Shown: piece after piece, positions 13,926 through 36,954 of the stretch
Numbering within the stretch: the stretch's first letter is position 1
Layout of the letters: each line of letters opens with the position of its first letter
Assembly: GCA_026984835.1 (NCBI GenBank)
Contig: JALSRI010000179.1
Span: 1-38,225 of the forward strand
DNA: 38,225 nucleotides
DNA from: Thiohalobacter sp.
GTDB taxonomy: Bacteria > Pseudomonadota > Gammaproteobacteria > DSM-19610
Direction of reading: 5' to 3'
Notes under the pieces: model-generated
Told to the model about the DNA's origin: nothing
Seen by the model: the letters and a program-made list of their open reading frames with translations, nothing else
The model's database searches: none
Translations under genes and position numbers: made by a program

Positions 13926-15437
13926 ATGTGCGGCATTGTTGGCATCGTGGCACACGATGCGGTTAACCAGTCCATCTACGACGCGCTGACCATCCTGCAG
14001 CACCGCGGCCAGGACGCGGCCGGCATCATGACCTGCGACGGCAAGCAGCTCTACCTGCGCAAGAGCAACGGCCTGGTGCGTGATGTCTTCCACACCCGCC
14101 ATATGCTGCGCCTGCGCGGCAGCATGGGCATAGGCCACGTGCGCTACCCGACCGCCGGCTGCGAGAGTTCCGCCGAGGCCCAGCCGTTCTTCGTCAACTC
14201 GCCCTACGGCATCTCGCTGGCCCACAACGGCAATCTCATCAACGCCGGGGAACTGAAGGACGCCCTGTACCGCGAGGACCTGCGACACATCAACACCGAT
14301 TCCGACTCCGAGGTGCTGCTCAACGTGTTCGCGCACGAGCTGCAGCAGCGCGGCAAGCTCGCCGTCGGAGACGAGGACGTGTTCGCCGCCGTCGCCGGCG
14401 TGCATCGCCGCTGCCGGGGCGCCTACGCGGCGGTGGCCATGATCACCGGCTACGGGGTGGTGGGTTTCCGCGACCCCTACGGCATCCGCCCGCTGGTCTA
14501 TGGCAAGCGCGAGACGCCGCGGGGCACCGATTACATGGTGGCCTCCGAGAGCGTGGCGCTCGATGCCCTGGGCTACGAACTCATCGACGACGTGCGTCCC
14601 GGCGAGGTCGTGTTCATCTCCCAGGACGGCCGCCTGGTGACGCGCCAGTGCGCGGACCGGCCCGAGTATGCGCCCTGCATATTCGAACACGTCTACCTGG
14701 CGCGGCCGGATTCCATCATCGATGACATCTCGGTCTACAAGGCGCGGCTGCGCATGGGCGAGCACCTGGCCGGGAAGATTCGCCGTGAGCGGCCCGAGCA
14801 CGGTATCGACGTCGTCATCCCCATTCCCGATACCAGCCGTACGGCAGCCCTGCAGGTGGCCAACGCGCTGGGCGTCAAGTACCGCGAAGGCTTCATCAAG
14901 AACCGCTACATCGGCCGCACCTTCATCATGCCCGGCCAGCAGCAGCGCAAGAAATCGGTGCGCCAGAAGCTCAACCCCATCGAGCTGGAGTTCAAGGGCA
15001 AGACCGTGCTGCTGGTCGACGACTCCATCGTCCGCGGCACCACCTCGCAGCAGATCATCCAGATGGCGCGCGACGCCGGCGCTGCGCAGGTGTATTTCGC
15101 TTCCGCCGCGCCGCCGGTGCGCTACCCCAACGTCTACGGCATCGACATGCCGACCAAGGACGAACTGATCGCTCACGGCCGCAGCGTGGAGGAGGTGGCC
15201 GCCGCCATCGGCGCCGACTGGCTGGTGTACCAGGACCTGGACGATCTGGTGGACTCGGTGCGCCGCGGCAACCCGGATATCGCACGCTTCGACTGCTCGG
15301 TGTTCACCGGCGAGTACATCACCGGCGGCGTCAGCGACGACTACCTGGATCACCTGGAAGCGCTGCGCAACGATTCCGCCAAGGATGTGCGCCGCAACGC
15401 CGAACAGGAAGTGATCGAGCTGCACAACAATGCTTGA
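13926..15437 (+). CDS. purF: Amidophosphoribosyltransferase
   Basis: The 503-residue enzyme makes phosphoribosylamine from PRPP and glutamine, the first step of purine synthesis. The N-terminal nucleophile is Cys2 in MCGIVGIV, exposed after removal of Met1, with no propeptide. The glutaminase domain shows GHVRYPTAG and HNGNLINA. The PRPP-binding loop is [14 protein letters not shown]. The last codons overlap a consensus -35 box that serves the metZ leader. Confidence 0.97.
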
Positions 15438-15462
15438 CAGCCCGAACCGGCGCGCCTAACCT
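15434..15462 (+). promoter_or_regulatory. Promoter of the metZ leader
   Basis: A perfect TTGACA (15434-15439) overlaps the purF stop codon. It is spaced 17 bp from TAACCT (15457-15462), which keeps the key T, A and final T of a -10 box. The predicted start near 15469 lies immediately before the riboswitch aptamer, which supports the call. Confidence 0.65.
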
Positions 15463-15470
15463 GAAATCGT

Positions 15471-15526
15471 TACATGCGCCGATTTGATCTCAGCTTGCGG
15501 GCGCACAACAAATCCGGCTAAAGCGA
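15471..15526 (+). ncRNA. SAM-II riboswitch aptamer upstream of metZ
   Basis: The stem TGCGCC (15475-15480) pairs perfectly with GGCGCA (15500-15505). The loop starts with GATTTG (15481-15486), which can form the pseudoknot with CAAATC (15509-15514). The loop also holds CTTGC (15494-15498), and the 3' tail has GGCTAAAGCG (15516-15525). The order GATTTG, CTTGC, ACAAAT, GCTAAAG matches the SAM-II (SAM_alpha) consensus as I remember it. The downstream gene is metZ, a typical SAM-II target, so SAM should repress it. Confidence 0.88.
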
Positions 15527-15532
15527 TGGCGC

Positions 15533-15567
15533 AACCTGCTTTCGTTCAGCCGATGGCGGGTTTTTTT
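15533..15567 (+). terminator. Riboswitch-linked intrinsic terminator before metZ
   Basis: AACCTGC (15533-15539) pairs with GCGGGTT (15556-15562) with one G-U pair, followed by further T residues to 15567. A competing hairpin pairs CGGCT+AAAGC (15515-15524) with GCTTT (15538-15542) and AGCCG (15548-15552). That hairpin uses the SAM-binding tail and part of the terminator stem. It looks like an attenuator rather than the purF end alone. Confidence 0.7.
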
Positions 15568-15623
15568 GTGCCCGCTCGCAAATGACAGCGGACCCCCTCC
15601 AATAAGAGCCACAGGAGCGCCCC

Positions 15624-16802
15624 ATGAGCGACGATCACCCCGGCTTCGATACCCGTGCCGTGCGCGCCGGCCAGCACCGCACCGCGGAGCAGGAGCACAG
15701 CGAACCCATCTTCCCGACCTCGAGCTACGTGTTTGGCAGCGCCGCCGAGGCCGCCGCGCGTTTCTCCGGCGAACAGCCCGGCAACATCTATTCCCGCTTC
15801 ACCAACCCGACGGTGCGCACCTTCGAGGAACGGCTGGCGTCCCTGGAAGGCGGCGAGCGCTGCGTGGCCACGGCCTCCGGCATGGCAGCCATCTACGCCA
15901 CCTGCGCCGGGCTGCTGGCGGGCGGCGACCACATCGTTTCGTCGCGCAGCATCTTCGGCAGCACGACGTTGCTGTTCACCAACTTCCTCGGCAAGTTCGG
16001 CATCGGTACCAGCTTCGTCCCCCAGAACGACCTGGCGGCCTGGGAAGCCTCTATCCGTCCGCAGACGCGGCTGCTGTTCCTGGAGACACCGTCCAATCCC
16101 CTGACCGAGGTCGCCGACATACGGGCGCTGGCGGAGCTGGCCCACCGCCACGACTGCCTGCTGGTGGTCGACAACTGTTTCTGCACCCCGGCGCTGCAGC
16201 AGCCGCTGGCCCTGGGTGCGGACATCGTGGTGCATTCCGCCACCAAGTACATCGACGGCCAGGGCCGTTGCGTGGGCGGCGCGGTGGTCGGCGACGCCGG
16301 GCGGGTCGGCCAGGAGATATACGGCTTCCTGCGCACCTGCGGTCCCACCATGAGCCCGTTCAACGCCTGGGTATTCCTGAAAGGACTGGAGACGCTGTCA
16401 CTGCGCATGCGGGCGCATTCCGCCTCGGCCGCCGCGCTGGCGCGCTGGCTGCGCGAGCAGCCGGGCGTGCAGCGGGTGTACTATCCGGGGCTGGAGGACC
16501 ACCCACAGCACGAGCTGGCGAGCCGCCAGCAGTCGGACTACGGCGGCATCCTGTCGTTCGAGCTGGCGGGCGGGCGCGAGGCCGCCTGGCGACTGATCGA
16601 CGCCACCCGGGTGTGTTCCATCACCGCCAACCTGGGAGACGCCAAGACCACCATCACTCATCCCGCAACCACTACCCACGGCCGCCTGACGCCGGAACAG
16701 CGGGCCGAGGCGGGCATCGCCGACGGGCTGGTGCGGGTGGCGGTGGGCCTGGAAGACGTCGACGATCTGCGCGCCGACCTGGCGCGCGGCCTGGACGCCT
16801 GA
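15624..16802 (+). CDS. metZ: O-succinylhomoserine sulfhydrylase
   Basis: The 392-residue PLP enzyme of the Cys/Met metabolism family makes homocysteine directly from O-succinylhomoserine and sulfide. The PLP lysine is Lys208 in HSATKYIDGQGR. Other family marks are YSRFTNPTV, ATASGMAAI, ETPSNPL and VDNCFCTP. The motif KYIDGQGR with VGGAVVG points to MetZ rather than MetB or MetC. AGGAG (15613-15617) lies 6 bp before the ATG. purF-metZ adjacency is conserved in gammaproteobacteria. Control by the SAM-II leader is inferred. Confidence 0.94.
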   Translation: MSDDHPGFDTRAVRAGQHRTAEQEHSEPIFPTSSYVFGSAAEAAARFSGEQPGNIYSRFTNPTVRTFEERLASLEGGERCVATASGMAAIYATCAGLLAGGDHIVSSRSIFGSTTLLFTNFLGKFGIGTSFVPQNDLAAWEASIRPQTRLLFLETPSNPLTEVADIRALAELAHRHDCLLVVDNCFCTPALQQPLALGADIVVHSATKYIDGQGRCVGGAVVGDAGRVGQEIYGFLRTCGPTMSPFNAWVFLKGLETLSLRMRAHSASAAALARWLREQPGVQRVYYPGLEDHPQHELASRQQSDYGGILSFELAGGREAAWRLIDATRVCSITANLGDAKTTITHPATTTHGRLTPEQRAEAGIADGLVRVAVGLEDVDDLRADLARGLDA

Positions 16803-29471: not shown

Positions 29472-29548
29472 CGGGGTATAGCGCAGTCTGGTAGCGCGCC
29501 TGCTTTGGGAGCAGGAAGTCGGGGGTTCGAATCCCTCTACCCCGACCA
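29472..29548 (+). tRNA. tRNA-Pro (UGG)
   Basis: The acceptor CGGGGTA pairs with TACCCCG, the discriminator is A, and CCA is encoded (29546-29548). The anticodon stem CCTGC/GCAGG bears loop TTTGGGA with anticodon TGG. The T-arm is GGGGGTTCGAATCCCTC. Confidence 0.97.
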
Positions 29549-29590
29549 AAAGGCAAGCCCGCCGGGTGTGGGCAAGGAGCCAGGCTTCGA

Positions 29591-29667
<77 letters not shown>

Positions 29668-29690
29668 ACACGGGGCGCACAGGGTTCAAT

Positions 29691-29767
29691 GGCGGGCGTA
29701 GCTCAGTTGGTAGAGCACAGGATTGTGACTCCTGTGGTCGCCGGTTCGATCCCGGTCGCTCGCCCCA
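29691..29767 (+). tRNA. tRNA-His (GUG)
   Basis: The acceptor GCGGGCG pairs with CGCTCGC (one G-U). The extra G at 29691 serves as G-1 opposite the discriminator C764, the hallmark of tRNA-His. The anticodon loop TTGTGAC has GTG. CCA is encoded. Confidence 0.97.
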
Positions 29768-29775
29768 TTACAAAC

Positions 29776-29851
29776 GGGCCGTTAGCTCAATTGGCAGAGC
29801 AGTGGACTCTTAATCCATTGGTTGTAGGTTCGATTCCTACACGGCCCACCA
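29776..29851 (+). tRNA. tRNA-Lys (CUU)
   Basis: The acceptor GGGCCGT pairs with ACGGCCC, the discriminator is A, and CCA is encoded. The anticodon loop CTCTTAA has CTT, the less common lysine isoacceptor, which reads only AAG. A UUU-reading tRNA-Lys must lie elsewhere. Confidence 0.96.
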
Positions 29852-29919
29852 TCTTCCCCATCCCGTGGTCTCCGATATCCCGTTGACATGACGGGCTTAT
29901 CCCCGATATTCCAAACCGG

Positions 29920-29925
29920 TATAAT
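29920..29925 (+). promoter_or_regulatory. Candidate -10 box before tRNA-Leu
   Basis: A perfect TATAAT lies 38 bp before tRNA-Leu. The TTGACA at 29883-29888 is 31 bp away and too far to serve as its -35. At 17 bp there is only TTATCC. It could give tRNA-Leu and tig an independent start. Confidence 0.4.
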
Positions 29926-29963
29926 GGCTTGCGACCTGCGTCCCCGCGGCCCGGGGCGACAGG

Positions 29964-30048
29964 GCGAAAGTGGCGGAACTGGTAGACGCGCAGGATTTAG
30001 GTTCCTGTGGGGCAACCCGTGAGAGTTCGAGTCTCTCCTTTCGCACCA
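29964..30048 (+). tRNA. tRNA-Leu (UAG)
   Basis: The acceptor GCGAAAG pairs with CTTTCGC, the discriminator is A, and CCA is encoded. The anticodon loop TTTAGGT has TAG. A long variable arm (TGGGGCAACCCGT) marks a class II tRNA. Confidence 0.97.
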
Positions 30049-36793: not shown

Positions 36794-36869
36794 GGGTGCT
36801 TAGCTCAGCTGGGAGAGCATCTCCCTTACAAGGAGAGGGTCGGCGGTTCGATCCCGTCAGCACCCACCA
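36794..36869 (+). tRNA. tRNA-Val (UAC)
   Basis: The acceptor GGGTGCT pairs with AGCACCC, the discriminator is A, and CCA is encoded. The anticodon stem TCTCC/GGAGA bears loop CTTACAA with TAC. Confidence 0.97.
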
Positions 36870-36877
36870 TGGTTTCA

Positions 36878-36954
36878 GGAGCGGTAGTTCAGCTGGTTAG
36901 AATACCGGCCTGTCACGCCGGGGGTCGCGGGTTCGAGTCCCGTCCGCTCCGCCA
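36878..36954 (+). tRNA. tRNA-Asp (GUC)
   Basis: The acceptor GGAGCGG pairs with CCGCTCC, the discriminator is G, and CCA is encoded. The anticodon stem CCGGC/GCCGG bears loop CTGTCAC with GTC. It lies 8 bp after tRNA-Val. Confidence 0.97.

Follow-up and report, generated by a model that had tools for sequence, protein, structure and literature searches.

The window, as the whole stretch of 38,225 nucleotides analysed here is called, contains a gap between purF and metZ, and all features of this locus described below lie on the plus strand. The upstream neighbour, purF (13926–15437), encodes amidophosphoribosyltransferase (NCBIfam TIGR01134, 533 bits against a cut-off of 350). The downstream gene, metZ (15624–16802), encodes O-succinylhomoserine sulfhydrylase, as judged by NF006003 (697 bits) and TIGR01325 (589 bits), both above the cut-off. 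The switch region occupies positions 15471–15567 of the gap, which extends from the purF end at 15437 to the metZ start at 15624. The Shine-Dalgarno sequence of metZ, AGGAG, is located at 15613–15617, 90 nt on the 3′ side of the aptamer tail and outside both the aptamer and its pseudoknot. A candidate sigma-70 promoter, TTGACA-N17-TAACCT (15434–15462), matches the consensus at 9 of 12 positions and overlaps the 3′ end of purF; 13 nt separate the end of its −10 box from the GCGCC strand of the first aptamer stem, P1. Promoter-like sites with at least 9 of 12 matches were present in 125 of 189 leaders, compared with 14.4 in shuffled sequences, and their −10 boxes lie mostly 7–13 nt before P1. 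A promoter just before P1 was described as a feature of SAM-II by Corbino in 2005 (PMC1273637). The simple terminator and promoter scan of the window listed neither feature, owing to its loop rule and to a −10 rule that was too strict, and the Rfam scan of the window at gathering scores returned tRNAs only, with no RF00521. Two tRNA clusters are found in the window, one of five tRNAs (29472–30045) and one of two (36794–36951).

The SAM-II (SAM_alpha) aptamer is situated at 15475–15526. When 221 bases (15420–15640) were searched with a lax threshold, RF00521 gave a plus-strand match to 15466–15542 (28.7 bits, E = 6.3e-5). In the search of the whole genome, the metZ leader obtained E = 1.9e-4, and two further sites scored 28.4 and 26.0 bits. 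The assignment to SAM-II, made in an earlier note from the letters of the sequence, thus has a significant score behind it, though one below the RF00521 gathering score of 36 bits, and the leader is missed at the default threshold. This gathering score is an operational cut-off and not a structural trait. Several leaders of the same layout in relatives exceed it, namely L011 (metZ, 39.1 bits), L160 (metX, 37.2 bits), L188 (36.4 bits) and L170 (metX, 36.2 bits). A search of the window for the core motif pattern gave a single occurrence, and 100 shuffles gave none. SAM-V, or long-loop SAM-II, was considered as well, but RF01726 did not match significantly (12.6 bits, E = 7). The minimum-energy fold of the leader is unremarkable (z = −0.09); as its plain folding energy is ordinary and gives no support, the support comes from comparison.

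The scan for MetZ proteins provided 80 metZ loci with leaders, all from Gammaproteobacteria or from MAGs filed as Proteobacteria, the closest belonging to Thiogranum-, Thiohalobacter- and Ectothiorhodospiraceae-like MAGs. An almost gap-free alignment of 42 aptamers combined the one in the window with those of 39 metZ leaders and of two further sites in the Thiohalobacter genome. The covariance model built from the aligned aptamers, R1, contains P1 as its only stem. Slightly more than half of the 80 metZ loci gave strong R1 matches, as did four sites of the Thiohalobacter genome; the element was present in nearly all sampled genomes of the bacterium's own family and in 23 of 39 relatives overall.

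Stem P1 is formed by TGCGCC (15475–15480) and GGCGCA (15500–15505). Its five core pairs are paired in 100% of the cells in 84 distinct relatives, with two-sided changes at four of the five pairs and 20 compensatory cells, a level reached in none of 500 shuffles. Loop L1 carries UUU (15483–15485), corresponding to U10–U12 of the SAM-II structure, which make up the third strand of the SAM-binding triplex (PMC3764141), and loop L3 contains a conserved A-rich stretch with AAA (15510–15512), assigned from the same structure to the A-minor strand against P1. The 5′ side of P2b, UUGC (15495–15498; U20 U21 G22 C23), is invariant and would pair with G15517, C15518, A15520 and A15521 of GCUAAAG (15517–15523). 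The latter comprises the 3′ side of P2b and the part of the SAM pocket formed by G42 C43 U44 A45 A46 A47 (G42–A47 correspond to 15517–15522). All 13 pocket nucleotides named from the SAM-II crystal structure (U10–U12, U20, U21, G22, C23, G42, C43, U44 and A45–A47; PMC3764141) are present and invariant in the 42 aptamers.

The P1 strands, GATTTG and the GCTAAAG tail had been located correctly in the earlier note, which regarded GATTTG/CAAATC as the pseudoknot. The latter pairing did not survive the comparison: relatives show no covariation for it, and 10 of 20 sequences cannot form its terminal G-C pair. In the crystal structure of SAM-II, the two strands correspond to loops L1 and L3 (PMC3764141). 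The predicted pseudoknot is that of UUGC with GC(U)AA, and it is the less well supported part of the model. P2a consists of 2 bp, UC (15490–15491) with GA (15525–15526), whereas about 5 bp are found in most SAM-II aptamers (PMC6061858). It is paired in 95% of the cells in 20 close leaders and shows no covariation; in the survey of P2a lengths, some counts of 0–1 bp were mislocated, the first TTGC having been picked from the upstream sequence. P2b is complementary in all aligned aptamers and nearly invariant, so covariation cannot show it.

Behind the aptamer lies an intrinsic terminator (15533–15567; −14.3 kcal/mol) with the stem AACCUGC(U)/(G)GCGGGUU, an inner stem and a U run at 15561–15567. 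The stem strands 15533–15539 and 15556–15562, as well as the T run, agree with the positions given in the earlier note. Terminator hairpins below −6 kcal/mol were found in 147 of 190 leaders, and some family members have no terminator. The GCUAAAG stretch doubles as the 5′ part of a predicted antiterminator (15515–15552), which comprises CGGCU/AGCCG, AGCGA/UCGUU and GGCG/UGCU, 14 pairs in total, with an energy of −16.7 kcal/mol. It takes up 15537–15540 from the 5′ arm of the terminator, the rest of which it encloses. The pairing of CGGCTAAAGC (15515–15524) with GCTTT (15538–15542) and AGCCG (15548–15552), as suggested previously, proved right in its partners and too short in its extent; this version reaches −9.7 kcal/mol. 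The antiterminator is the minimum-energy structure of a transcript ending at 15553, and the terminator forms instead when the SAM-bound strands are held out of folding. In the fold of the full leader, the 3′ strand of P1 pairs with GCGCCC beside the metZ start, a pairing that is not part of the model.

The antiterminator keeps 92% of its pairs in the 20 closest leaders. The alternative pairing is backed by covariation, of the kind for which the earlier note had advised looking: pair 15516/15551 occurs as GC in 13 of 20 relatives and as AU in 6, a compensatory change that appeared in none of 500 shuffles by one count and in one by another. In 136 leaders, the pairing of the aptamer tail with the 5′ half of its own terminator has an energy of −13.26 kcal/mol, compared with −12.24 for permuted partners and −8.3 for shuffled ones; none of 2000 permutations gave a pairing as strong as the cognate one, these permutations ignoring the shared ancestry of the leaders. 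By minimum-energy folding, the tail folds into the terminator half in 133 of 139 leaders, and in 63 when the platform was shuffled. In most leaders GCUAAAGC has its partner in GCUUUAGC or GCUUUGGC, whereas several metX leaders preserve the pairing with a different tail, GCUAAAGACG, and CGUUUUUAGC opposite it. This conservation of the tail pairing across leaders indicates that the SAM-binding strand is also the antiterminator strand.

It is very likely that the purF–metZ gap carries its own promoter and a leader of about 95 nt comprising a SAM-II riboswitch that controls metZ by transcription attenuation. We infer SAM binding, the direction of the switch and its kinetics along the following lines. 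In the SAM-bound state, P1 and the P2 pseudoknot would hold 15517–15526 (GCUAAAGCGA) in the pocket and block the antiterminator, the terminator (15533–15562) would form, and transcription would stop in the U run, leaving metZ off. When SAM is scarce, the strand 15517–15526 would pair with 15537–15552 and break the 5′ arm of the terminator, and the polymerase would read into metZ. The core of the earlier reading, a SAM-II aptamer with mutually exclusive terminator and antiterminator and metZ off in the presence of SAM, appears to hold, judging from homology, the pocket, the covariation of P1 and the antiterminator, and more than 100 leaders.

The Thiohalobacter genome contains other copies of the aptamer. 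A tandem pair is found at L002 (1394–1572, minus strand; G000:C53:68782-68960). Its first aptamer has its own terminator and a 10-bp complementarity between tail and terminator, and its second precedes a Shine-Dalgarno sequence and an ORF (MTNTSGSHPFDG...) with no Pfam or PADLOC match. The pair looks like the bi-mechanism tandem type of PMC9481103, a paper that describes 44 examples of tandem SAM-II. A third copy is located directly before metK (L003, 1459–1573, minus strand; G000:C100:11183-11255) and possesses a terminator and an antiterminator-like pairing; about 1.4 kb downstream of it lies an SAH riboswitch (RF01057, 62.5 bits). In relatives, tandem copies stand before genes of unknown or unexpected function (L176–L180, L133, L142, L182, L191, L205 and L223), with L176–L180 coming from a single genome, G237, that has nine R1 matches. 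The genes behind them include a MoxR-like ATPase, recognised by eye, and small hypothetical proteins, and a C-rich stretch complementary to the Shine-Dalgarno sequence typically comes after the second aptamer. An anti-phage role for these genes was considered and set aside, as there was no convincing PADLOC match.

Control of metZ at the level of translation, with SAM hiding the ribosome-binding site as in the metX SAM-II from the Sargasso Sea, is a very improbable reading of the metZ leader. The crystallised SAM-II works in this way (PMC6061858), the P2a of the window, at 2 bp, is similarly short, and in relatives a Shine-Dalgarno sequence lies next to the second aptamer of many tandem pairs. 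However, in the metZ leader 90 nt and a strong terminator separate the aptamer from the Shine-Dalgarno sequence, and both the terminator and the antiterminator are conserved in homologous leaders. Another notion is that the hairpin is a mere 3′ terminator of purF, the tail pairing a by-product and the aptamer decayed or inactive. No more than 95 nt lie between the end of purF and the terminator stem, and the promoter-like site overlaps that end, but the hairpin is also found behind the aptamer before metK, metX and metF, where other genes are upstream, its 5′ arm stays complementary to the aptamer tail, and the bases of the pocket are all intact; this explanation, too, is very improbable.

A shift of the SAM-II-like aptamer to another ligand, such as SAH or another metabolite of the methionine cycle, would fit the low RF00521 score, the short P2a and the compact sequence subgroup. 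It is nevertheless hardly credible, given that the SAM-contacting nucleotides are all invariant, including two uridines interpreted as sensors of the positively charged sulfur (PMC3764141), that a distinct SAH riboswitch is present near metK in the Thiohalobacter genome, and that the targets are classic SAM-repressed genes. Attenuation through a leader peptide was also rejected: a 15-codon frame runs from ATG at 15474 to TAA at 15519–15521, inside GCUAAAG, and has no additional Met codons. This frame (15474–15521) is not conserved, an ATG near P1 being present in only 39 of 190 leaders. The metZ leader is, with high probability, a SAM-II riboswitch acting by transcription attenuation. Aptamer homology, conservation of the pocket, covariation of P1 and of the antiterminator, the conserved terminator, the promoter and the gene context were all computed.

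In the class sample, 181 of 370 genomes, representing 130 of 273 genera, had an R1 match at E ≤ 1e-4; the phylum sample gave 85 of 397 genomes, many of the matches outside the class being weaker. In the GTDB taxonomy, the classical Betaproteobacteria are placed inside the class Gammaproteobacteria. RF00521 found 120 genomes of the same class sample at E ≤ 1e-3 and 34 of the 370 above its own cut-off. About half of the class sample has the element according to R1, against about a tenth in which RF00521 exceeds its cut-off, so the annotation of Gammaproteobacteria probably underrepresents the control of methionine genes by SAM. Clustering of the downstream genes gave 117 metZ-like genes, 21 metK, 9 metX in two clusters, a metF-like group of 5, 3 metN-like ABC transporter genes, 2 homocysteine methyltransferase-like genes and one metE, in addition to the unknown genes behind tandem copies; metZ alone was checked by profile search, and the other names come from reading the translations. 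The element is thus located before genes of methionine and SAM synthesis, metZ in the window and metK at L003, and metZ, metK, metX and metF in relatives.

Leyn et al. (2014) reported SAM_alpha in Rhizobiales and Rhodobacterales only, and separately a metXZ element of beta-proteobacteria with a terminator and an antiterminator and an unknown ligand (PMC4239095). The latter has six conserved blocks, folding 1–4 and 2–6, with a terminator behind them, and stands before metX or metZ (PMC4239095). In the present study, R1 found SAM-II followed by a terminator at metX leaders L160–L171, from a family in this class, and at Burkholderia-like metZ leaders L236–L240, and some of the R1-found metX and metZ leaders that fit the description of the metXZ element also pass RF00521. 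Considering the layout, genes, taxa and published description, the metXZ element is probably the same RNA as the SAM-II leader. The Burkholderia-like aptamers L236, L237 and L240 have the P1 GCGTC/GACGC and an extra hairpin-like insert, GGGN..CCCG, in loop L3; RF00521 reported none of the three at E ≤ 0.01.

Another family, RF02424 (Bp2_287), has matches at each of the three terminator-bearing aptamers of the Thiohalobacter genome, always on the antisense strand. Antisense to the SAM-II RNA, it scored 24.8 bits in the window and 204 bits at the metZ leader L237, the DNA of which shares 93% identity with a replicon of Burkholderia cenocepacia. The matches at L237 (426–598, minus), L236 (1412–1588, plus) and L240 (454–656, minus) are likewise antisense only, and the SAM-II/metZ strand had no RF02424 match. 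The sRNA Bp2_Cand287_SIPHT was reported to adjoin purF, metZ and metX, and a cis-acting role was proposed for it (PMC3521395). RF02424 looks like the opposite strand of the SAM-II attenuator in Burkholderia relatives, and its review as such is suggested. No link of the metXZ element or RF02424 to SAM-II was found in the literature searched, the coverage of which leaves out many journals. It is likely, on balance, that the beta- and gammaproteobacterial copies constitute a mechanistically uniform SAM-II subclass, with a short P2a and the SAM strand as antiterminator (GCUAAAGC pairing with a GCUUUAGC-like sequence in the terminator arm), that this subclass is mostly missed at the Rfam cut-off, and that the metXZ element and RF02424 represent the same RNA, reported twice independently.

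SAM-II had been described in the earlier note as usually translational, which is the reverse of the literature (PMC1273637, PMC2258182, PMC6061858, PMC9373788), and the terminator arrangement, taken there as worth a look, is to be expected given the published transcriptional SAM-II switches. Terminators behind many members were noted in 2005 by Corbino (PMC1273637); a report of 2007 listed gamma-Proteobacteria among the carriers of SAM-II and linked most SAM-II of alpha- and beta-Proteobacteria to terminators (PMC2258182). The majority of SAM-II riboswitches are transcriptional, the metX example being a rare translational one (PMC6061858). In Sinorhizobium meliloti, a terminated metZ leader RNA of about 100 nt is more abundant in the high-SAM condition (Scheuer 2022, PMC9373788). 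The SAM-II switch before metZ is therefore of a type already known, and the Thiohalobacter leader conforms to the predictions of theory and of earlier surveys. The conserved antiterminator adds a concrete account of how SAM-II would control termination, which was only predicted in the papers cited.

Compared by description with the S. meliloti metZ leader (sRNA RZ, PMC9373788), the Thiohalobacter leader shares the SAM-II aptamer before metZ and a predicted SAM-dependent terminator; sRNA RZ is alphaproteobacterial and was seen as a terminated RNA of about 100 nt on Northern blots. As regards tandem SAM-II (PMC9481103), the same genome has a tandem pair on contig C53, and the metZ leader is single. 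The metXZ element resembles the leader in being a pseudoknot-forming structure before metX or metZ with a terminator and a proposed antiterminator, but was published as a new element not linked to SAM-II, and RF02424 Bp2_287 differs in that it is classified as a gene for an sRNA of the opposite strand (PMC3521395). In comparison with SAM-II as represented by RF00521, the window aptamer is distinguished by a P2a of only 2 bp, by its score of 28.7 against 36 bits and by its place in a gammaproteobacterial subgroup with a near-invariant GCGCC/GGCGC P1 and CAGCUUGC loop. It agrees with SAM-II in P1, the predicted P2b pseudoknot, the UUU of L1, the A-rich strand of L3 and the 13 pocket nucleotides, as well as in the met-gene context, the promoter just before P1 and the terminator behind the aptamer.
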